Origin: a virus
Length of the DNA: 43,642 bases
Reading direction: 5' to 3' (one strand)
Virus record (IMG/VR): IMGVR_UViG_3300029267_001394
Location: 1 to 43,642 of that record
Shown here: in pieces, positions 1,701 to 43,642 of the stretch
How the letters are laid out: each line of letters opens with the position of its first letter
How positions within the stretch are numbered: position 1 is the stretch's first letter
The notes under the pieces: generated by a model
Seen by the model: only the letters and a program-made list of their open reading frames with translations
What the model was told of the DNA's origin: nothing
Database searches by the model: none
Program-made: the position numbers and the translations under genes

Positions 1701-3101
1701 TTGCCCAAAGCCAAGCCGAAGGACGAGCCCAAGCTCGCCCCCTGGCCCGCCGACACCGTCGAGCGCCGGCCGATCGCTGACCTCGTCCCCTACGCCCGGA
1801 ACGCGAAGGTCCACCCGCCCGCGCAGATCGACCGGATCGCCGCGTCGATCCGCGAGTTCGGGTGGACGATCCCCGTTCTCGTCGACCCGGACGGGACCCT
1901 CATCGCCGGCCACGCGCGCCTCGAGGCGGCGCAGAAGCTCGGGCTCGAGGAAGTCCCGACGATGGTCGCCGAGGGGTGGAGCGCGGCGAAGCGCGCCGCC
2001 TACGTCCTCGCGGACAACCGCCTCGCGCAGGCCGAGTGGGACGACGACCTCCTCCGCGCCGAGATCGCGGAGATCGACCTCGACGGCTTCGACCTCGGCT
2101 TCACGGGGTTCGATCCGGACGAGATCGCGAAGCTCCTCGAGGACCCCCTCCCGCCGCTCTCGGGCTCGGACGGAGCCTCGAGCCTCGCGGAGACCTTCCT
2201 CGTCCCGCCGCTTTCGATCTTGGACAAGCGTCAGGGCTACTGGGTCGAGCGCGGACGGCGCTGGAAGGCGTCCCACGACTTCGACACGGACGCGAGCCGC
2301 GCGAACGTTGAGACCTGGGGCTCGTCGAAGTCGCGCTCGGACGCGACCCGCAAGCACGCGGAAATGACCGCCCAGAACGTCTCGATGTTCGACCCGGTCC
2401 TCGCCGAGGTTCTCCTCACCTGGTTCAGCGCCCCCGACGACCTCGTCGTCGACCCCTTCGCCGGGGGCTCCGTCCGGGGGATCGTCTCGGGGGAGCTAGG
2501 CCGGCGCTACCTCGGAGTGGATCTCCGGGAGGAGCAGGTCGAGCAGAACCGCGAGGCGCTCCGGGAGGAACTCGCCGAGCGCGTCCGCTGGATCGCCGGA
2601 GACGGCGCGGAGGAGATCGGGAAGCTCGAGGAGGAGTCCGCCGACTTCTCGCTCGCCTGCCCCCCGTATTTCAACCTGGAGAAGTACTCCGACGACCCGC
2701 GAGACCTCTCCGCGATGAAGTGGGACGGCTTCCTCGAGGTCTACCGCGCCGCGATCGCGGCGACGGTCCGAGCCCTCAAGCCGAACACTTTTGCCGCTTG
2801 GGTCGTCGGCGAGGTCCGGTCGACTCGAGGGTCGCGCGGTGAGTACGTCGGCTTCGTTCCCGAGACGATCCGCGCCTTCGTCGACGCCGGAGCGCCGCTC
2901 TACAACGAGCTGATCCTGGTCGAGCCCGGAGGGACAAAGGGGATGCGCGCGGCGCGGCCGATGCTCGCGAGCCGGAAGGTGGTCAAAAGTCACCAGAACG
3001 TCCTCGTCTTCGTGAAGGGCGACCCGAAGGCGGCGGCGCAGCGCCTCGGCCCGATCGAGCTGCCTCCCGAGGAGGAGGAGACCGAGGAGGAGACGGAGTA
3101 G
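1701..3101 (+). CDS. ParB-like domain fused to DNA methyltransferase
   Basis: A 466-residue two-domain protein. Residues about 20-130 form a ParB/sulfiredoxin-like N-domain (IADLVPYARNAKVHP, GWTIPVLVD, IAGHARLEAAQKLG, VLADNRLA). Residues about 230-450 form an N4/N6 amino-methyltransferase with motif I VVDPFAGGS (SAM binding) and a motif IV variant ACPPYF instead of the usual D/N/S-PP-Y/F. This combination is common beside phage terminase genes. It probably modifies phage DNA against host restriction, with the ParB part guiding DNA contact. The start is TTG at 1701, the first start codon after the in-frame stop at 1649. An acidic tail (EEEETEEETE) ends the protein 4 bases before the terminase small-subunit start. 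Confidence 0.9.
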   Translation: MPKAKPKDEPKLAPWPADTVERRPIADLVPYARNAKVHPPAQIDRIAASIREFGWTIPVLVDPDGTLIAGHARLEAAQKLGLEEVPTMVAEGWSAAKRAAYVLADNRLAQAEWDDDLLRAEIAEIDLDGFDLGFTGFDPDEIAKLLEDPLPPLSGSDGASSLAETFLVPPLSILDKRQGYWVERGRRWKASHDFDTDASRANVETWGSSKSRSDATRKHAEMTAQNVSMFDPVLAEVLLTWFSAPDDLVVDPFAGGSVRGIVSGELGRRYLGVDLREEQVEQNREALREELAERVRWIAGDGAEEIGKLEEESADFSLACPPYFNLEKYSDDPRDLSAMKWDGFLEVYRAAIAATVRALKPNTFAAWVVGEVRSTRGSRGEYVGFVPETIRAFVDAGAPLYNELILVEPGGTKGMRAARPMLASRKVVKSHQNVLVFVKGDPKAAAQRLGPIELPPEEEETEEETE

Positions 3102-26200: not shown

Positions 26201-28697
26201 CCGCGTCCGCCGGAAGACCTTTCGCCTCGAGGGCGTCACCTCCGCGTCCCAGGCCGCGCGAGAGCTGGACGTCCTCCTCGAGTCGAACGCAAAGCTCCGG
26301 GTCACGATCTCCTTCGACGCCTGGCTCGACGCGATCGACCTCGAGCCCGGCGACGTCTTCTATTTTGCGAATCGCCTCCCCGCGTGGGACTACGGCGGCC
26401 GGCTGCAGCAGGACTCCGCTTCCGAGAGCGAGGTCCGGATCGACCTCGACGTCACGCTCGAGTCGGGCAAGACCTACCGCGTCGCCGCGCGGAGCGCCGA
26501 GGGCCTCGTCTCCGAGGCGGTCGTCTCGAGCGGCGCGGGCAGCTACTCAGCCGGCGACCCGATCTCGCTCGCGACCTCCCTCGACTTCGAACCGAAGAAG
26601 GGCGACCTCTACGTCCTCGGCGAGGAGACCACGACGACCCGCCTCTTCCGAATCACTCGGATCGGGCTCGCGGACCAGTTCGTCCGCCGGATCTTCGCGG
26701 TCGCCTACGACGAGGACGTCTTCGAGATCAAGCCGAACGACGTCGCCGCGATTGGCGAGTTCGCGGCGCTTTCGGTCAAGCCGACCGACACCGGCGAGGC
26801 GGTCGCGCCCAACTCGATCACGGCGACAGAAGCGAGCGTGGCCGACGCCGTCACCGGCGCGGTCCAGACGTCGGTCTGGGTTTCCTGGGGGCTCGCGCCT
26901 GCGGACGAGGCTCGGGTCCATCGCTTCCGCGTCTTCGTCCGTCGGATCCGAGGTCTCCGGGAGCGCGAGGAGGCGATCGCCCCGTGGAGCCAGGTCGCGG
27001 AGCTGTCCGGGCAGGCGCGGGAGTACCGAATCACCGGCGCCCAGGTCACGCCCGGGCAGCGCGTCGACGTCGCGGTCCAGCCGATTACCAAGCGAGGCGC
27101 GAGCTTCGGGCTCGCGCAACTCCCCGCCTACCAAGTCTCGATTCGAGGGCGCGTCCAGCGATCCGACGTCTACACGGCTCCGACCGTGACCCGCTACGGG
27201 CCCGAGCTGCGGATCGAGGGGACGGTCGGGAACGGCCGCCACGGCGCGCTCGAGGCGCGGCAGGGAGGCTGGCTCCTCGGTCTCCCGATCGCCTCAGGCG
27301 AGGGCGGCGTCGACGTCCTGCAGACCAACGCCTACGCCGACGCGAGCGACAACGCTGCCGGCGACACCGCCCTTCCTCTCTACGTCCGCGAGCGCCTCGG
27401 CTCGGGCTCCTACGCTTCGGGGCAGGTCTACCGCTTCGCGACGGACGAGTTGAAAGAGGAGGACGCGCAAAGCGACGACGTCGCCGTCCGCCAGGAGGAC
27501 TCGGGCTTCACCTCGACGCCGCCCGGCGGCACGAACGCCCCGATCCTGACCGACGCGGTCATCGACGGCGGGAAGGTCGTGATCGACCCGGCCTCCTCGA
27601 GCCTCAATCCGTCGTGGACCTCGAGCTACTTCGACGTCGGCGAGGCCGCGCGCTACCGCGTAAACTTCTCCCTCGAGGCGTTCCAGGTCCACCCCGCGAC
27701 CTGGGAGGACTTCGCCGACGAAACCTTCGACTCGATCTGGGCCTCCGACTGGACCGCCGAGGGTCCGCTCGTCGAAGAGTGGGACTCGAGATTCTCGTCG
27801 AACATCCGGGCGGTCTACGAGATCCGATTCTCCGACACGGCCGACCCGACCGCCGAGGAGTGGGTCCCGTTCCGGCCGGGCGTGTACTACGGGCGCAGCT
27901 TCCAGTTCCGCGTGCGCTTCCGGCGGACCGACACCGAGTTCGACGTCACTTTCGGCAAGGCGGCTTTCCGGATCTACCGCGTCCCCTACGTCGACCCGGG
28001 CGACCTCGACGCCGGTTCGCTCCCCTCAAGTCAGCTCCGGACGTTGCAGATCCTCCGCTCGACCGAGGCGAACCGGACGGCGAAGACGCTCGCCGCCGGA
28101 GAGCCTCTCTTCACGACCGACGAGGAGAAGCTCTTCGTCGGAGACGGATCGACCGGAGGAGGGATCCAGGTCGGGGGGCAGCGCAACTTCTCGATGGGTC
28201 ACTCGGCCGGGCTCCGTTACTTCGCGAGCAACGTCCTGGCGGCCGGAGCCGCCGGCGCGGGCGCCGCCAACTTCGTGACCTTTGTCCCGATCTGCATCGG
28301 CGAGCCGGCGACCTTCACCGGGATCGGGATCAACGTCTCGACCGCCGGAGGCTCGACCGTCCGCCTCGGGATCTACTCGAACGTGGGGTCGAAGCCGGGC
28401 TCGCTGATCCTCGACGCCGGGACGGTCTCGGTGACGTCGACCGGGCAGAAGACCGCGACGATCTCGCAGCTCTTGACCGCCGGCTGGTACTGGCTCGCCG
28501 CGCACTTCGACGCCTCGCCGCCGGCGGTGACGTCGACGCCCGCCGGCGTCGGACACCCTGCGATCGGGGCGGCGACGTCCTCGACGACGCTCCACTCGGG
28601 CTTCGTCGCCATCCAGCTCTACGCTTCCGGCCTCCCCGCGTCGCCGACGCCGATCTCCTACACCCTCCCGCTGCCGATCGTCTGGCTCCAGTTATGA
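23238..28697 (+). CDS. Tail tip/central fibre protein, J-like, with I-like N-terminus
   Basis: The largest protein, 1819 residues. The first 120 residues carry a small domain and a hydrophobic stretch (TLGSVIASLLVSAAVTLV, about 96-113) resembling lambda gpI, which has no separate gene here. The J-type hub follows (YGFNGIRTNYKAVGSTIPVVYG in parts). A LamG/concanavalin-like domain is inserted at about 385-590 (FSIETWHRRNN, RLRVFINGAQR). Fibronectin-like strands occur near 1190-1300. Residues about 1600-1650 hold an Mtd-N-like module (LAAGEPLFTTDEEKLFVGDG), then a beta C-terminal domain that probably binds the receptor. Confidence 0.9.
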   Translation: MTRALIPEGPIALSLIDDPFQPFSRRKRLVPYRVGMTARELADEAWGAGVSAVAIFPGKGHARLGEVWEPDELADRLLEPGEVVTLAQLPEGLEITLGSVIASLLVSAAVTLVTNLLFPPPDVPTQVEEDSSKTYGFNGIRTNYKAVGSTIPVVYGYHGVGGLVISQEIVEALDVSIAGPNKVQQTLRVLLAVCEGPIRSIGGVTADSDELVGENLPQGLKINGNTASNLEGVKAFVRLGTIEQATIPGFSIASTIYNVGTPIENWDENGDAITDWSEAVAYDMPEEGDFATVAIQFPKGLYNVDGNGNTGTLTTEIAVRFQELDAGGSPIGSAVDVLGGQPIVFSEAIPSAFTRLVRFPLYDPATVAYATAATGITLNGDDGDFCRANARLPYAGASGNPEAPSFSIETWHRRNNVPPNNEFLFSLADGSFQSTTVPSQIQGITARIVNGTLRVHWGDGSSVETLTVSGFTLETVQSIPGGTGTGPWYQVVVTYELGAGPGNEDRLRVFINGAQRAEALTLLRWTYPTTHDRLILGSWGPNLGTLHGFIQFDRCRVWERALTPAAISAAFVSQNPETYSADDLVLDWTMDSNSLVSGTSYTIPANGSTTISGQLELPSAFGDHQSEGVLPPALTQGTPKRARYRISVQRLSNQQDTTKNQGSTTFQSVTVGVDEAFVYPEVALLGLEIPAQADASGGTPEFLIPVEGKLVRVRTGGTTTEPVFSTVFSRNPWWIALDHYLNPRALGEFHDQADFDFDNVQEVADYADVNVTDGTAALEPQGSFAYNLADSTWEAVFLAEDFPDSWFSGKTVEVNGLGSALEAAGWPGDGSEVSIVKISDTTVSQTTPAKNVEFSWPEGLAFPPSGTATPSATPGSSFQTKAPRHRCDIVFDRADGNAWDALQKIVRAGRGAAISLGSKVRFRAQRPEVPVHVFSEANILEGSLTISGISPEDEFNTAVAEILNETVDWEREPVQRQSDELRDASDFVRVRRKTFRLEGVTSASQAARELDVLLESNAKLRVTISFDAWLDAIDLEPGDVFYFANRLPAWDYGGRLQQDSASESEVRIDLDVTLESGKTYRVAARSAEGLVSEAVVSSGAGSYSAGDPISLATSLDFEPKKGDLYVLGEETTTTRLFRITRIGLADQFVRRIFAVAYDEDVFEIKPNDVAAIGEFAALSVKPTDTGEAVAPNSITATEASVADAVTGAVQTSVWVSWGLAPADEARVHRFRVFVRRIRGLREREEAIAPWSQVAELSGQAREYRITGAQVTPGQRVDVAVQPITKRGASFGLAQLPAYQVSIRGRVQRSDVYTAPTVTRYGPELRIEGTVGNGRHGALEARQGGWLLGLPIASGEGGVDVLQTNAYADASDNAAGDTALPLYVRERLGSGSYASGQVYRFATDELKEEDAQSDDVAVRQEDSGFTSTPPGGTNAPILTDAVIDGGKVVIDPASSSLNPSWTSSYFDVGEAARYRVNFSLEAFQVHPATWEDFADETFDSIWASDWTAEGPLVEEWDSRFSSNIRAVYEIRFSDTADPTAEEWVPFRPGVYYGRSFQFRVRFRRTDTEFDVTFGKAAFRIYRVPYVDPGDLDAGSLPSSQLRTLQILRSTEANRTAKTLAAGEPLFTTDEEKLFVGDGSTGGGIQVGGQRNFSMGHSAGLRYFASNVLAAGAAGAGAANFVTFVPICIGEPATFTGIGINVSTAGGSTVRLGIYSNVGSKPGSLILDAGTVSVTSTGQKTATISQLLTAGWYWLAAHFDASPPAVTSTPAGVGHPAIGAATSSTTLHSGFVAIQLYASGLPASPTPISYTLPLPIVWLQL

Positions 28698-30897: not shown

Positions 30898-31005
30898 CGC
30901 GCCCCCTCCACCGTCTGGAGCGTCGCTCTGGCCCTGTCCCTCGCCGCGCCCGGGGGGCGATCAGGGGCTCGGAGCGGCGCTCCTTTCGTCTCCCAAAATA
31001 GAAGC

Positions 31006-31033
31006 GGGCTCGCGGCGACCAAACCGCGAGCCC
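31006..31033. terminator. Bidirectional intrinsic terminator between convergent units
   Basis: A perfect 10-bp stem GGGCTCGCGG / CCGCGAGCCC with loop CGACCAAA. TTGATT follows on the plus strand; the plus-strand bases AAAATAGAA before the stem become a U-rich tail on the minus strand. It sits between the end of the structural transcript (30897) and the end of the minus-strand operon (31097). Confidence 0.8.
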
Positions 31034-31052
31034 TTGATTGGAGACCTGACGC

Positions 31053-31190
31053 ATGAGCGCAAGGTCCCCCCAGGGTAACGGCCGCTCGGGGAAGGTCTAC
31101 CCCCTGCCGGGAGGACGGAGGAGCGCGTCGAGCCCTCGGACCTGGACGGTCTTCGCGACCCGGAAGGCGCCGCGCATCGTCTCGAGCTGA
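31053..31190 (+). CDS. Possible small ORF with early-type leader
   Basis: A 45-residue reading frame that starts with ATG 9 bases after GGAG at 31040-31043; the leader GGAGACCTGACGC nearly equals that of the early genes. The basic product shows no motif. Its last 94 bases overlap the 3' end of the minus-strand gene at 31097, which is well supported. It may be a real small gene, or the stump of an early gene cut by a past rearrangement. Confidence 0.3.
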   Translation: MSARSPQGNGRSGKVYPLPGGRRSASSPRTWTVFATRKAPRIVSS

Positions 31191-31897
31191 GCCTTCGGCG
31201 TCCGCCGCTGGGCTCCGAGCCCGAAAGCGTAGAGCCAGGAGAGGAGCGAGCGGTCGGCGAAGCCGGGGGGGATCGGCCCTCGCCCGGAGTCCGGGTCCCA
31301 GATCTCGGCCGCATAGCCGACTTGCCGCCAGGTCCAATGCCCCCGGCGGGCGCCCCAGACGAGGAGCGCGTCGCCGTCGGCGGTCTCGAGGTCGACCGCG
31401 TCGAAGAGGCCCGCCGCCTCGATCAGGTCCGCCGCGCGGCGCTCCCAGAGGTCCGCGAGGGCCTCGGCGACGTAGGTCGCCGTGTAGCGTTCGCCGGGCT
31501 CCGGTCGCGGCGCGGTCCAGGGGCCGAGGGAGGCGACGGAGCCGTTCTCGGCGACGAGCCCGGCCCAGACCGAGGGCGCGGAGGTCTGGTCGTTCGAGAA
31601 GCGGATCGTCGCGGCGAGCTGGGGCCGCCCTAGGACGTCTGCCGCCGATCCCCGAGGCCGGTCGACCGAATAGACCTGGCGGCCGGCGAGGATCACGTCG
31701 CGGCTCTGAGAGCGGCCCTCGATCGCCTCGAGGCGCGAGCCCCACCCTCGAGCCTCGAGGGCCGCGTCGAAGGCCTCGAGAACCTCGAGGTAGGCAATCG
31801 GGCGCCAGTAGCGGCCGGGCCCGGAGGGCTCGACGTCGTCGACCGGGGGCAGCTCCGCGAGGGAGGGTCGAGTGACGGGAGAGGAGGGCGTGATCAT
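31097..31897 (-). CDS. Hypothetical protein, minus-strand operon gene 4
   Basis: A 266-residue protein I do not recognise. It contains VLEAFDAALEARGWG, SRDVILAGRQVYSVDRP, LAATIRFSNDQTSAPSVWAG and YTATYVAEALADLWERRA, so a mixed alpha/beta fold is likely. The IRFSNDQT...SVWAGLV... plan is loosely like DUF932 phage/plasmid proteins, but the family is not certain. The ATG overlaps the stop of the 31894 gene (ATGA), the same coupling as elsewhere. The open frame extends upstream to 32797, but that part is a shadow. It is the last gene of the leftward unit. Confidence 0.7.
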   Translation of the reverse strand: MITPSSPVTRPSLAELPPVDDVEPSGPGRYWRPIAYLEVLEAFDAALEARGWGSRLEAIEGRSQSRDVILAGRQVYSVDRPRGSAADVLGRPQLAATIRFSNDQTSAPSVWAGLVAENGSVASLGPWTAPRPEPGERYTATYVAEALADLWERRAADLIEAAGLFDAVDLETADGDALLVWGARRGHWTWRQVGYAAEIWDPDSGRGPIPPGFADRSLLSWLYAFGLGAQRRTPKAQLETMRGAFRVAKTVQVRGLDALLRPPGRG

Positions 31898-32526
31898 TCG
31901 GAGCGGACCTCCTCGCCGGAGAGGGTCCGGACGCCGACCACCGGGTGGCCTGCGTGGTATCGGCCGAGCGTGTCGAGCTGCGACTCGCCGGCGAAGAGGG
32001 GAGTCCCGTACAGCTTGCGGCCGGTCGTCGCGAGGTGGGGGCGCGGAGCCTTCGTCCAGTACTTCTCGCCGGTGAAGGACGAGTATTCGGTCCAAAAGCC
32101 TGTGGCGGGAGCGATCTGCAGGTCGCCGGGGGCGGGCTGCGGACCCGGATCGAGAGCCTCGAGGACGGCGGCCCAGCGGCGCGCGAGCGTCGCGGCCATC
32201 AGTCCGCGCTCGTCGAGGACGGGGCTGGTCTTCGCCGGCGAGAGGTCGAGCGGCTCGAGGACGACCGCCCGAGGGCGCGGCCGGATCGACTCGACGCGAT
32301 GGGCCAGGTCGAAGGCTAGGGCTCGGACCGTCGCCGTCCGGAGCCTCTCGGCTTCGGGCAGGAAGAGGACGCCGGCGCCCTCCGTCCGCGAGCCGCGCTC
32401 CTCGCCGGAGGCGATCGCGATCTCGGAGAGCATGGACGAGGGCGAGACCGTGTAGTGAGGGATTCGGAGGGGGGCGCCCGGGAGCAGGTCCCTGGCGTCT
32501 TCGAGCGAGAGGATGAGAGTTTGCAT
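31894..32526 (-). CDS. Hypothetical protein, minus-strand operon gene 3
   Basis: A 210-residue protein of unknown function. It has MLSEIAIASGEERG, AERLRTATVRALAFDLAHRV, an RAVVLEPLDLSPAKTSPVLDE segment, and a Trp/Tyr-rich stretch TGFWTEYSSFTGEKYWTKA. No membrane segment, cysteine pair or known catalytic motif is visible. The start is the ATG at 32526, 5 bases after the upstream stop. The larger open frame upstream to 33357 is a shadow. It is probably co-transcribed with its three minus-strand neighbours. Confidence 0.7.
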   Translation of the reverse strand: MQTLILSLEDARDLLPGAPLRIPHYTVSPSSMLSEIAIASGEERGSRTEGAGVLFLPEAERLRTATVRALAFDLAHRVESIRPRPRAVVLEPLDLSPAKTSPVLDERGLMAATLARRWAAVLEALDPGPQPAPGDLQIAPATGFWTEYSSFTGEKYWTKAPRPHLATTGRKLYGTPLFAGESQLDTLGRYHAGHPVVGVRTLSGEEVRSE

Positions 32527-32531
32527 TTGGC

Positions 32532-32912
32532 TTACCAGTCGCAGACTTCGTGGATCGGGACCGGGCAGTCGAAGGGCCAGCGGGAATCGCTCGAGGCGAG
32601 CCAGTCGCCGGCAAAGCAGGCGCCGCTCGTCGGGCCGTCGACAGGGCGACCTTCCTCGTCGAGGAAGTGGACGACGACCCGGGCGACCTCGCCGAGCGCG
32701 ACGCTGGTCTCGTTGGAGATGAAGCGGCGGACCTTCGGGCGGACGTAGGCGAGGGCGCCGACGCGCCCCTTTTCGGCCTTGGAGAAGATCCGGACAAGGA
32801 GGCTCGAGCGAGCGACGTCGCCGATCCGGACGCCGTCGACTTCGTAGGCGACGGAGATCGGGCGGGAGCGGTCGCGGTCGCTCGCGCGCCAGGCGAGTTC
32901 GGGGAGTTTCAT
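32532..32912 (-). CDS. Hypothetical protein, minus-strand operon gene 2
   Basis: A 126-residue protein of unknown function. It is beta-rich (ISVAYEVDGVRIGDVARSS, then VGALAYVRPKVRRF) and ends in a Trp/Cys-containing tail (FDCPVPIHEVCDW). The ATG at 32912 is preceded by GAGACCTGACC, the early-gene leader in a slightly weaker form, which decides the start. A hairpin at 32946-32967 lies between it and the upstream gene and may lower its expression. Confidence 0.68.
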   Translation of the reverse strand: MKLPELAWRASDRDRSRPISVAYEVDGVRIGDVARSSLLVRIFSKAEKGRVGALAYVRPKVRRFISNETSVALGEVARVVVHFLDEEGRPVDGPTSGACFAGDWLASSDSRWPFDCPVPIHEVCDW

Positions 32913-32945
32913 GGTCAGGTCTCGGTTTCGAAGGAGGGAAGGGAA

Positions 32946-32967
32946 GGGGAGGGCTTGCGCCCTCCCC
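32946..32967 (-). terminator. Hairpin with tetraloop between minus-strand genes
   Basis: A perfect 9-bp stem. On the minus strand it reads GGGGAGGGC-GCAA-GCCCTCCCC, with a GNRA tetraloop, followed by a pyrimidine-rich TTCCCTTCCCTCC stretch. It may be a weak terminator or a processing or attenuation site between the 80- and 126-residue genes. Confidence 0.55.
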
Positions 32968-32974
32968 GGGAGAC

Positions 32975-33217
32975 TCAGGCGTCGAAGGCGACGAGGCCCG
33001 AGCGATGAGCGAGAAGCTCGACCTTGTCGCTCGGTTCCGGCTGGACCTCGTCGGCGAAGACGAGAACTTCGACGCCCGCCGAGCGGAGGTCGGCCGTCCG
33101 GACCAGGACGCAGGAGCCGACCAGCTCGACGACGCGAGCCCGAAGAAGCTGCACCTCGCCGGCGAGCGAGATCGGAGCGAGGACCGCCTGGCCCTGCTGG
33201 AGAGAAGAGAGATCCAT
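32975..33217 (-). CDS. Hypothetical protein, minus-strand operon gene 1
   Basis: An 80-residue protein with a compact beta pattern: QQGQAVLAPISLAGEVQLLRARVVEL in pieces, SCVLVRTADLRSAGVEVLVF, then LLAHRSGLVAFDA. This looks like a small SH3-like or OB-like barrel, but no family is recognised. It is the first gene of the leftward operon, about 55 bases after the candidate start site from the promoter at 33280. A plus-strand frame covering the same bases has weaker sequence character and no leader. Confidence 0.65.
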   Translation of the reverse strand: MDLSSLQQGQAVLAPISLAGEVQLLRARVVELVGSCVLVRTADLRSAGVEVLVFADEVQPEPSDKVELLAHRSGLVAFDA

Positions 33218-33251
33218 CGAAGCGCCTTGGCTTGAGGAGGACGGGAAGTGG

Positions 33252-33270
33252 GGGAGCGCCTCTCGCTCCC
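33252..33270 (-). promoter_or_regulatory. Leader hairpin of the minus-strand operon
   Basis: A 7-bp stem GGGAGCG / CGCTCCC with a 5-base loop, followed on the minus strand by CCCACTTCCC. It lies in the transcribed leader between the candidate promoter and the first gene and resembles the hairpin at 32946. Attenuation or mRNA stabilisation is possible. Confidence 0.4.
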
Positions 33271-33279
33271 GCCGACACT

Positions 33280-33308
33280 CTTATCTGAGCAAGCGCGGCC
33301 CGGGCCGG
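33280..33308 (-). promoter_or_regulatory. Candidate leftward promoter
   Basis: On the minus strand GATAAG (33285-33280) is a reasonable -10 hexamer. With a 17-base spacer its -35 would fall at 33308-33303, at the edge of the operator-like palindrome 33307-33319; no good -35 sequence is visible there. It would drive the four minus-strand genes. Confidence 0.4.
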
Positions 33309-33319
33309 GAAGCCTTCCC
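33307..33319. promoter_or_regulatory. Putative operator, copy 2 (leftward half of tandem pair)
   Basis: GGGAAGCCTTCCC, a perfect palindrome around its centre. It directly abuts copy 3 and by geometry covers the -35 region of the leftward promoter. Confidence 0.6.
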
Positions 33320-33332
33320 GGGAAATCTTCCC
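33320..33332. promoter_or_regulatory. Putative operator, copy 3 (rightward half of tandem pair)
   Basis: GGGAAATCTTCCC, directly adjacent to copy 2. Its GGGAAA lies 17 bases from TAGAGT (33343-33348), so a bound protein would block the -35 region of the regulator's own promoter. Confidence 0.65.
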
Positions 33333-33348
33333 GCGAATCGGCTAGAGT
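33320..33348 (+). promoter_or_regulatory. Candidate promoter of the XRE regulator, leaderless
   Basis: TAGAGT at 33343-33348 ends 7 bases before the ATG at 33356, so the transcript probably begins at or beside the start codon. The -35 position is occupied by GGGAAA of the operator. The same geometry recurs at 41064-41092. Confidence 0.5.
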
Positions 33349-33355
33349 CTCCCGC

Positions 33356-33676
33356 ATGGAAACTCACGACCTCCGAGCGACCCGCGTCTCCGGCTTCCGG
33401 TTCGAAGCAGCCTGGAGCCCGGACGCCTTCCTCATCCTCCGGACCCAGCGCCGCCTCTCTCTCGAGCGCGTCCGAGAGGGCATCGCGGAGCGCCTCGGCG
33501 CCGACCGCGCGCCTTCGATCTCCGCGCTAGGCCGTTGGAACAAGGAAGGCAGCGGCGGACCGCGAGACCTCGAGACCCTCGGCGCTTTGGCTTCCGTCCT
33601 CGGGGCGGACCCGGGCGCCTTCTACCGTCCCGAGCCGGCGACGCTCTCCGAGCTTGCCGCGCTCGAGATCCGATAA
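33356..33676 (+). CDS. XRE-family transcriptional regulator
   Basis: A 106-residue protein. Residues about 25-92 form a helix-turn-helix: LILRTQRRLSLERVREGIAE, then APSISALGRWNKEGSGGPR and LETLGALASVLGADPGAFYRPE, the usual XRE/Cro-CI layout. The first 20 residues are an extra strand-forming lead. It lies downstream of a tandem operator pair that overlaps its own promoter, so autoregulation is likely. It is the best candidate to bind the other GGGAA...TCCC sites. Divergent from it lies the minus-strand operon; downstream lie exonuclease and recT. The ATG is chosen over the longer frame from 33248, which would cross the operators. Confidence 0.82.
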   Translation: METHDLRATRVSGFRFEAAWSPDAFLILRTQRRLSLERVREGIAERLGADRAPSISALGRWNKEGSGGPRDLETLGALASVLGADPGAFYRPEPATLSELAALEIR

Positions 33677-33687
33677 CCCCCTCCCCT

Positions 33688-33691
33688 GGAG
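33688..33691 (+). promoter_or_regulatory. Shine-Dalgarno GGAG, conserved early leader
   Basis: GGAG, 8 bases (ATCTGACC), ATG at 33700. It belongs to the same leader family as 1281 and fixes the exonuclease start, well inside the longer open frame. Confidence 0.75.
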
Positions 33692-33699
33692 ATCTGACC

Positions 33700-34755
33700 A
33701 TGACCAGAATCAAGACCACCCCCCCGGACCTCGTCGACGAGGAGACCCTCGCGCTTTGGAATGAGACGCGAGCCGCAGGGATCGGAGCGAGCGAAGCAGC
33801 CGCCGCGCTCGGCTTCCCCGAGGCTTGGGGCGACCCCCTCAAGCTCTGGGCCGAGAAGACCGGCGAACTCGACCGGAACCGGCCGCTCGACGACCTCTCG
33901 CGAGAGCGGCTCTATTGGGGCCACCGGATGGAGCCCGTCCTCATGGCCGAGCTGGAGAGCCGGCTCCCGTTCGAGACTCTCGACCCGGCGGCGGCTCCCT
34001 CGCTCGCCTCGGCCGACTGCGTCGCCAACTGCGGCAAGCTCGGGCGGATCTTCGCTTCGGCCGACCTTCCCTGGCTCCGCTCAACCCCCGACGGCTTCGC
34101 GAGGGCTCTCCGCGACTGCGACTTCGTCGACGCGAGCGACGAGACTTTCCGCGTCGCCGAGGGAGAGATGGGGCTCGTCGAGATCAAGACCTCGAGCGCC
34201 TACGTCGCGGACAAATGGGAGGGCGGGCCGCCGGAGCACTACCTCGTCCAGGTCTGGCAGTCGCTCGCGGTCTTCGAACTCCCCTGGGCTCTCGTCGTCG
34301 TCCTCGTCGGCGGAAACGACTTCCGGGTCTACGGCGTCCGCCGGCTCGACGAGGAGGCCGAGACGGGCCTCATGGATCGCCTCGGAGAGTTCTGGGGCTA
34401 CGTCGAGAGCGGCAAACGTCCGCCGCAGCCCGAGAAGGGCGACCCGGGATGGGCGAAGCGCCTCGAGGCGCTCAAGCTCCTTCACCCCTCAGACAACGCC
34501 GAGCCGGTCAAGATCTCGGCCGACACGGGAAAGCTCCTCAAGCGACGCGAGACCCTCAAGAAGCAGATCAAGGACCGCGAGGCCGAGATCGACGAGATCG
34601 AGGGCCGCGTCCGGGAGGAGCTTGGAGACCACGCCGTCGGGGTTACTCTCGACGGGAAGTTCACGGCGACGCTGTCGACCGTGAGCGTCAAGGCGAGGAC
34701 CCAAGAGGTCGCCGCCTACACCTTCCGAAACCTGCGGCTCGTCCAGAGCAAATAG
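33700..34755 (+). CDS. YqaJ-type phage exonuclease
   Basis: A 351-residue lambda-exonuclease-like nuclease that resects double-stranded ends for RecT. GIGASEAAAALG (27-38) is the YqaJ opening motif; GHRMEP supplies Glu79 or nearby, STPDG gives Asp131, and LVEIKTSS gives Glu161 and Lys163. YLVQVWQSLAVF (181-192) carries the conserved Gln. The C-terminal third is a helical extension (KLLKRRETLKKQIKDREAEI) seen in other YqaJ recombinases. It precedes recT, forming an exonuclease-annealase pair. The start is the ATG after the GGAG leader. Confidence 0.92.
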   Translation: MTRIKTTPPDLVDEETLALWNETRAAGIGASEAAAALGFPEAWGDPLKLWAEKTGELDRNRPLDDLSRERLYWGHRMEPVLMAELESRLPFETLDPAAAPSLASADCVANCGKLGRIFASADLPWLRSTPDGFARALRDCDFVDASDETFRVAEGEMGLVEIKTSSAYVADKWEGGPPEHYLVQVWQSLAVFELPWALVVVLVGGNDFRVYGVRRLDEEAETGLMDRLGEFWGYVESGKRPPQPEKGDPGWAKRLEALKLLHPSDNAEPVKISADTGKLLKRRETLKKQIKDREAEIDEIEGRVREELGDHAVGVTLDGKFTATLSTVSVKARTQEVAAYTFRNLRLVQSK

Positions 34756-34758
34756 GAG
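34755..34758 (+). promoter_or_regulatory. Shine-Dalgarno GGAG, conserved early leader
   Basis: GGAG, 8 bases (ACCCGACC), ATG at 34767. The first G is also the last base of the exonuclease TAG stop. Confidence 0.75.
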
Positions 34759-34766
34759 ACCCGACC

Positions 34767-35906
34767 ATGACCAACAATCAGACCAAAGCCGTCGCGGCAG
34801 TCCGCGACTCCCTCGAGGGCCTCGGCCCGAAGATCGCCGCGATCGCTCCCAACGCGCTCAACCTCGACCGCTTCGTCGGCGTCGTCGTCCATGCGGTCCA
34901 GAAGACGCCGAAGCTCCTCGAGTGCAACCCGACCTCGCTCCTCTCGGCGGTCATGGAGTCCGCCGCTCTCGGGCTGACTCCGTCGGGCGTCCTCGGCGAA
35001 AGCTACCTCGTCCCGCGCGGCGGGACCGTCAACCTCCAGGTCGGCTACAAGGGACTGGTCAAGCTCGCGCTCGAGAGCGGGCAAGTCCGGCAGATCGTCG
35101 CGCGCCCGGTCTACAAGAAGGACCGCTTCCGCTATTCCTTCGGGCTCGAGGAGGACACCTTCGAGCACATCCCGACCGAGGATCCGGAGCGCGGGCAGGT
35201 CGTCCGCGCCTACGCCATCGCCCGCATGGTCGACGGACCCGCGCAGCTCGAGGTCACGGCGCTCGCCGACATTCTCCAAGCGAAGGCCGTCGCGCAGACG
35301 TCGAACGTCTGGGACCAATGGTTCGGAGCGATGGCGGCGAAGACGTCGGTCCGCCGGCTCTGCCGGCTGCTGACCCTCTCGCCGGAGTACCACCGCGCGC
35401 TCGCGATCGACGACGGAGAGATCGCTCCCGGCGAGGACCGCGACTTCGGGCTCGGGAAGACGGTCGACGTCCCGGCGAAGTCGAAGGCGGCGGCGGCGGC
35501 GGATCGGCTGCGGCCGAAGGGCGCTGATCCCCGAAAGGCCCCCGAGCCGGAGAAGGAGCCCGAGCCCGAGGAGACCGCGCCGCCGACCGGCGACGTCGAC
35601 CCGATCCTCTCCGACGAGGAAAGCCCCTGGGCGGACTCCGATCGGGATCGAGAGGAGGCGCCGAGCGAGCCCGACGTCTCCGGCGAGGACGACGCGCCCG
35701 AGGAGCCCGAGCCGGCTTCCCGCAAGGCAGGCAAGGCCACGATCGGCAAGCTCCAGGGCGCCGCGAACCGCGCCGGCGCGACGCCGGAGCAGCTCGAGAA
35801 GCTCGCGGTCGCGGCCGGCGCGGAGTCGCTCGAGAGCCTCACGATGGCGCAGGCGCGCGAGGTCAAGACCTGGCTCGAGTCGAAGGCCTGGGTCGACTTC
35901 GTCTAG
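34767..35906 (+). CDS. recT: RecT-like single-strand annealing protein with long C-terminal extension
   Basis: A 379-residue annealase. Residues about 1-230 match RecT: LVSAVMESAALGL-type segment (here LLSAVMESAALGLTPSG), YLVPRGGTVNLQVGYKGLVKLA, QWFGAMAAKTSVRRLCRLL. It anneals single strands produced by the upstream exonuclease. The remaining 150 residues are an acidic Pro/Glu linker and a helical ending (GKLQGAANRAGATPEQLEKLA, LTMAQAREVKTWLESKAW) that looks like a small SAP- or UBA-like domain, longer than typical RecT tails. It may bind SSB or helicase. The stop precedes an operator-like site. Confidence 0.9.
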   Translation: MTNNQTKAVAAVRDSLEGLGPKIAAIAPNALNLDRFVGVVVHAVQKTPKLLECNPTSLLSAVMESAALGLTPSGVLGESYLVPRGGTVNLQVGYKGLVKLALESGQVRQIVARPVYKKDRFRYSFGLEEDTFEHIPTEDPERGQVVRAYAIARMVDGPAQLEVTALADILQAKAVAQTSNVWDQWFGAMAAKTSVRRLCRLLTLSPEYHRALAIDDGEIAPGEDRDFGLGKTVDVPAKSKAAAAADRLRPKGADPRKAPEPEKEPEPEETAPPTGDVDPILSDEESPWADSDRDREEAPSEPDVSGEDDAPEEPEPASRKAGKATIGKLQGAANRAGATPEQLEKLAVAAGAESLESLTMAQAREVKTWLESKAWVDFV

Positions 35907-43384: not shown

Positions 43385-43388
43385 GGAG
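43385..43388 (+). promoter_or_regulatory. Shine-Dalgarno GGAG, conserved early leader
   Basis: GGAG, 8 bases (ACTCGACC), ATG at 43397. Confidence 0.7.
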
Positions 43389-43396
43389 ACTCGACC

Positions 43397-43561
43397 ATGA
43401 AGCAAGCTCAAGACGCCCTCGCCGCCGCCGCCTCCCTCCTCCTCGCAAGCTACTACGCTGCCAAGGACGCCCGGGGCGGGAGCCTCTACAAGATGAGCCT
43501 GGAAGGACGCGACCCTCTCGGCGATCCGGGAGGTCTGCGAACTCCACGGGCTCGACCCTGA
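43397..43561 (+). CDS. Small hypothetical protein, probably frameshifted
   Basis: A 54-residue frame that starts with a good GGAG leader: KQAQDALAAAASLLLASYY, then KDARGGSLYKM. After about residue 33 the codon pattern worsens (many A/T third bases). A second frame ending at 43574 then reads SAIREVCELHGLDPDPSN with the expected GC-rich third positions. A +1 shift near 43490-43500 would join them into about 58 residues. It may be a real lesion or a base error. Confidence 0.45.
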   Translation: MKQAQDALAAAASLLLASYYAAKDARGGSLYKMSLEGRDPLGDPGGLRTPRARP

Positions 43562-43583
43562 CCCGAGCAACTGAGGCCCGACC

Positions 43584-43642
43584 ATGGCAACGCTTCGAAA
43601 GTTCCTGAGCCTCCGCGACTTCGACTTCGCGAATGGGCGCTT
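43584..43642 (+). CDS. Partial gene at right edge
   Basis: ATG at 43584 preceded by GAGGCCCGACC, a form of the early leader. The visible 19 residues (ATLRKFLSLRDFDFANGR after Met) show a start with a basic helix and an aromatic, acidic turn. Function not recognisable. Confidence 0.5.
   Translation, partial: MATLRKFLSLRDFDFANGR

Follow-up and report, generated by a model that had tools for sequence, protein, structure and literature searches.

A leftward gene unit of a tailed phage, probably an exchangeable cassette, with a divergent DUF932-like gene

Gene content and borders of the leftward unit

The only block of genes read leftward in the virus record studied here raises the question of what its genes encode and whether they are kept together as one system. 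The window, that is, the whole stretch of DNA analysed, is a linear virus record of 43.6 kb and encodes a ParB/methyltransferase protein, a small terminase, head and tail proteins, a RecE/YqaJ exonuclease, RecT, and RusA-like and DnaB-like proteins. In the first-pass annotation, four tightly coupled minus-strand ORFs of unrecognised family (80, 126, 210 and 266 aa, from 33217 to 31097), accompanied by two hairpins and ended by a terminator, had been proposed to form an undescribed system. The features of the region are listed in Table 1.

Table 1. Features of the leftward unit and its neighbourhood in the window
Feature	Position	Strand	Remarks
53-nt non-coding element	31004..31056	.	same in L002:1442-1494; its minus strand is the terminator-like hairpin of the unit
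orf4	31097..31897	-	266 aa; divergent DUF932-like; only gene of the unit with a relative found
orf3	31894..32526	-	210 aa; orphan; stop overlaps the orf4 start
orf2	32532..32912	-	126 aa; orphan; hairpin and GAGACCTGACCATG leader precede the gene
9-bp hairpin, orf1-orf2 gap	32946..32967	-	fold z -3.1, stronger than chance
orf1	32975..33217	-	80 aa; small orphan protein; ORF with phage-like codon usage
7-bp hairpin upstream of orf1	33252..33270	-	fold of the segment no stronger than chance (z -0.6)
Putative regulator, divergent from the unit	33356..33676	+	106 aa; helix-turn-helix-like by eye only
RecE/YqaJ-type exonuclease	33700..34755	+	Pfam YqaJ E 6e-18, phrog_434 E 6e-54
RecT-type annealing protein	34767..35906	+	Pfam RecT E 5e-37, phrog_148 E 5e-65

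All four ORFs were present and showed phage-like codon usage. Their in-frame codon log-odds were 0.41-0.54 bits per codon, compared with 0.50-0.78 for the known genes of the phage, whereas both remaining frames on this strand gave negative values; GC3 was 0.83-0.91, against 0.88-0.94 in the known genes. The resemblance of both measures to those of the recognised phage genes shows that orf1-4 are real genes. A codon-based gene call over the whole window (about 45 genes) returned them as the sole minus-strand genes, in agreement with the earlier description of a single leftward unit. Tight coupling was found for orf3 and orf4, which overlap by 4 nt, and for orf2 and orf3, which are separated by 5 nt, but not for orf1 and orf2, which lie 62 nt apart. 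Only the hairpin located in this last gap was stronger than expected by chance, whereas the segment containing the one upstream of orf1 was not. The terminator at the end of the unit was recovered as a terminator-like hairpin on the minus strand (31033-31006, fold z -3.1), with 11 pairs and a weak T tail.

A start-site leader, GAGACCYGACCATG, recurs at 32910-32923 on the minus strand and at 33689-33702, 34756-34769, 43386-43399 and 43573-43586 on the plus strand. It stands before several genes, among them orf2 and the recE-like and recT-like genes, and before a gene for a 93-aa protein in L002, the related phage described below; its total count, with up to three mismatches allowed, was not above chance.

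The position of the unit opposite a putative regulator was also supported, the helix-turn-helix-like character of the latter having been recognised by eye only, and its product had no significant match in Pfam, PHROG or NCBIfam. A sole leftward unit that diverges from a putative regulator and has a terminator-like hairpin of its own would fit a moron-like operon, expressed from the prophage in the direction opposite to the early genes and of benefit to the lysogen. However, neither the tyrosine (PF00589) nor the serine (PF00239) integrase HMM had a match in the 43.6 kb record, which is possibly a fragment, and the regulator was not assigned to a family by any of the three databases; we consider such a lysogenic operon unlikely.

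Two observations were made elsewhere in the window. At 1701-3101, a ParB-like domain is fused to a DNA methyltransferase in a 466-aa protein, whose gene adjoins that of the small terminase. The related contig L013 (6388-8842) is 81% identical to the window as far as position 27981, in the gene of the large tail protein, and then diverges completely, which suggests an exchange of the tail-fibre end.

Searches with the products of the first three genes found no relatives: orf1 had no match in Pfam, PHROG or NCBIfam and none by tblastn against phages, orf2 had no meaningful relative in these three databases, in the IMG/VR scan or by phage tblastn, and orf3 had none in Pfam, PHROG, NCBIfam or the IMG/VR scans. 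The sole match of orf1, to E1-E2 in PADLOC, was weak (E 0.008, 13 bits) and was judged to be due to chance. The three proteins are orphans, and they may have a phage-specific role in the interaction with the host.

Relationship of orf4 to DUF932 proteins

Single-protein searches with orf4 (Pfam, PHROGs, NCBIfam and PDB sequences) recognised nothing, so that the earlier statement that no protein of the unit belongs to a known family holds for single-sequence HMM searches of all four; for orf4 it ceased to hold once relatives were used. Phage/plasmid tblastn likewise produced no convincing match. The Pfam HMM of DUF932 (PF06067) matched neither orf4 nor its homologue in L002. A Salinibacter relative also remained below the cut-off of this model (12.4 vs 23 bits), and the intermediates from a Microcoleus phage and a Kovacikia plasmid passed it (2 of the 17 sequences in the alignment described below).

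When orf4 was first compared with the YfjQ branch of DUF932, the result was no more than suggestive (hhalign P-value 0.03-0.04; score 21.5 vs a shuffle maximum of 20.1). The other branch was reached with a consensus that served exclusively as a query, all tests being carried out on real sequences. This query found real members in Salinibacter phages, a Planctomyces plasmid, a Microcoleus phage and a Kovacikia plasmid, and further members of the branch were found in two Myxococcota genomes and at 19 IMG/VR loci. Comparison of the pair formed by orf4 and its L002 homologue with a 17-sequence DUF932-like alignment gave E 7.3e-6, Prob 84 and a score of 44.5 in hhalign, whereas 300 column-shuffled versions reached a mean score of 13.7 and a maximum of 21.6. 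With orf4 alone the E value was 1.3e-5, and the other window proteins tested against this alignment scored at most 14. In hmmsearch, the two orf4 proteins ranked first, above 5,000 shuffled decoys, with non-significant E values (0.2 and 1). Three matches in Pseudomonadota genomes (E 0.005-0.008) were judged to be chance.

The alignment of orf4 with the family (PF06067; E. coli YfjQ; the TIGR03299 phage/plasmid-like proteins) was colinear across nearly its full length, and both share a layout of helix, beta-sheet, long helix and helical C-terminus. Residues R99, S101, D103, G113 and N118 of orf4 are kept throughout the DUF932-like alignment; the NSHD motif of DUF932 reads FSND in orf4, with S and D retained. 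About three residues of a conserved stretch ahead of the FVC-x-N motif are missing from orf4. Its identity to the family is 13-21%, and it stays below any HMM threshold. The subfamily profile of orf4 is found in protein AUO79125 of Salinibacter phage M8CRM-1 and its IMG/VR relatives.

Structure prediction pointed in the same direction. The AlphaFold model of orf4 built from two sequences had a pLDDT of 51, and a fold search with it was empty. When 15 viral family members were added, the pLDDT rose to 67.5 and the model matched viral DUF932, DUF945 and TIGR03299 models (E down to 5.7e-8, prob 1.00, TM about 0.5), the top match being a protein of Salinibacter phage M8CC-19. Since the alignment itself contained proteins of the family, this result is partly circular, but many of the matched proteins did not belong to it. 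Against the PDB the model had no significant match: for the annealase fold of Rad52/RecT single-strand annealing proteins (beta-sheet plus beta-hairpin), the Rad52 matches were insignificant (E 1.7 and worse), as were those to CapZ-like structures and to Hsp70 (TM 0.13).

Of the profile-profile and structure searches that had been recommended for the four proteins, those with orf4 related it to DUF932; orf1-3 are still orphans. On its sequence and predicted fold, orf4 is a highly divergent relative of DUF932, without being a member by Pfam's own rule.

Comparison with a related phage and the terminal element

The only relative of orf4 in the collections searched was found in L002 (IMGVR_UViG_3300007960_007968), at L002:606-1388, with 74% identity. 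It occupies the same convergent place beside homologous structural genes. L002 belongs to the same phage group as the window phage, and both carry the 53-nt terminal element. Unlike the window, L002 has two small genes (93 and 83 aa) where orf1-3 would stand, and direct comparison revealed no relationship between their products and orf1-3. The 83-aa gene overlaps the start of the orf4 homologue, as orf3 overlaps that of orf4. This comparison involves one relative, and upstream of the first replacing gene its contig has only 71 more bases.

The absence of orf1-3 from L002 indicates that the four-gene block is not conserved, and that its position and orf4 are. The proposal of an undescribed four-gene system is therefore weakened: the set is not kept as a unit in the sole relative found, its genes being dissociated there in the way that the first-pass annotation had itself named as contrary to its proposal, and orf4 falls in the DUF932 sphere. 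The tight spacing of orf2-4 and the single terminator-like hairpin would suit a new functional module of four parts acting together; such a module is nevertheless very improbable, with orf4 found apart from orf1-3 in L002 and with orf1-3 lacking relatives in IMG/VR (orf2 and orf3) or in the phage searches.

The 53-nt element was identical at all of its 53 positions and was the longest exact match between the window and L002, the next longest (39 nt) lying inside a gene; the DNA common to both phages is only about 75% identical (about 68-77%). On the plus strand, the element consists of a hairpin followed by GGAGACCTGACGCATGA, which resembles the GAGACCYGACCATG leader. A plus-strand ORF at this site is not conserved, since beyond its ATG one of the two phage sequences is a single base longer than the other. 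The element had no match in Rfam. An attachment site or a tRNA was rejected, because the window contains no tRNA and neither the 398 genomes nor the phage records searched held a copy of the element.

Possible functions and the preferred reading

The arrangement is best explained if this tailed phage carries, in the unit, a variable and exchangeable accessory cassette whose retained gene is the divergent DUF932-type orf4, and we consider this reading probable. Leftward reading of the cassette would start in the control region that separates the putative repressor-like gene from the structural genes, at a promoter presumably located within 33218-33355, and would end at the conserved hairpin. 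The promoter-proximal orf1-3 would be lineage-specific and replaceable, and the distal, translationally coupled orf4 would be the gene that is retained.

What such a cassette would do can be approached in several ways. Orphan, quickly replaced small genes at a control region are typical of cassettes for counter-defence or host takeover, in which, applied to this locus, four small early proteins would block host defences or redirect metabolism, with orf1-3 as fast-exchanged specificity factors. The replacement of orf1-3 in L002 fits this type. In addition, YfjQ, a member of DUF932, is encoded in a prophage region of E. coli that also contains defence genes and a putative antirestriction gene. 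However, the PADLOC-DB defence-system HMMs had no convincing match among the proteins of the unit, and neutral accessory genes would be equally expected to be exchangeable, which leaves counter-defence a minor possibility.

No function of DUF932 is given in the papers searched. The RecE and RecT genes are found at a distance of about 2 kb from the unit, and in a Salinibacter phage the DUF932-like gene immediately precedes a module of exonuclease, SSB and ERF genes. On these grounds, the leading candidate for the function of orf4 is an auxiliary one in the DNA metabolism of the phage, whether in recombination or in replication, as a tentative assignment that may well prove wrong. The gene of AUO79125 differs from orf4 in standing directly beside the exonuclease gene, orf4 being on the opposite strand and at the distance mentioned, and no relatives of orf1-3 precede it. 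Moreover, inspection by eye showed that the neighbourhoods of the family vary, and among the family loci the Salinibacter phage was the only one in which tblastn with RecE, RecT, ERF and SSB queries detected recombination genes, which makes the argument for DNA metabolism a weak one.

At two DUF932-like loci from different phages (L055 583-1251 and L061 7206-7931), a nearby gene encodes an N-terminus with a similar pattern that includes cysteines (KMP..G..IPA..C, C..CYA..GFY). Its product is a possible recurrent partner.

It is also conceivable, and quite unlikely in our judgement, that orf1-3 represent three families without detectable relatives that act with the DUF932-type protein in an early phage function, and that 31004-31056 is a regulatory RNA or a bidirectional control site and not only a terminator.

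Proteins of the DUF932 sphere occur widely, on phages and plasmids as well as on integrated elements, and orf4 extends this sphere to sequences that HMM searches with a single protein fail to recognise. Two related phages keep the DUF932-like gene while its operon partners are swapped, and the invariant 53-nt element offers a cheap and testable lead on the regulation of these phages.
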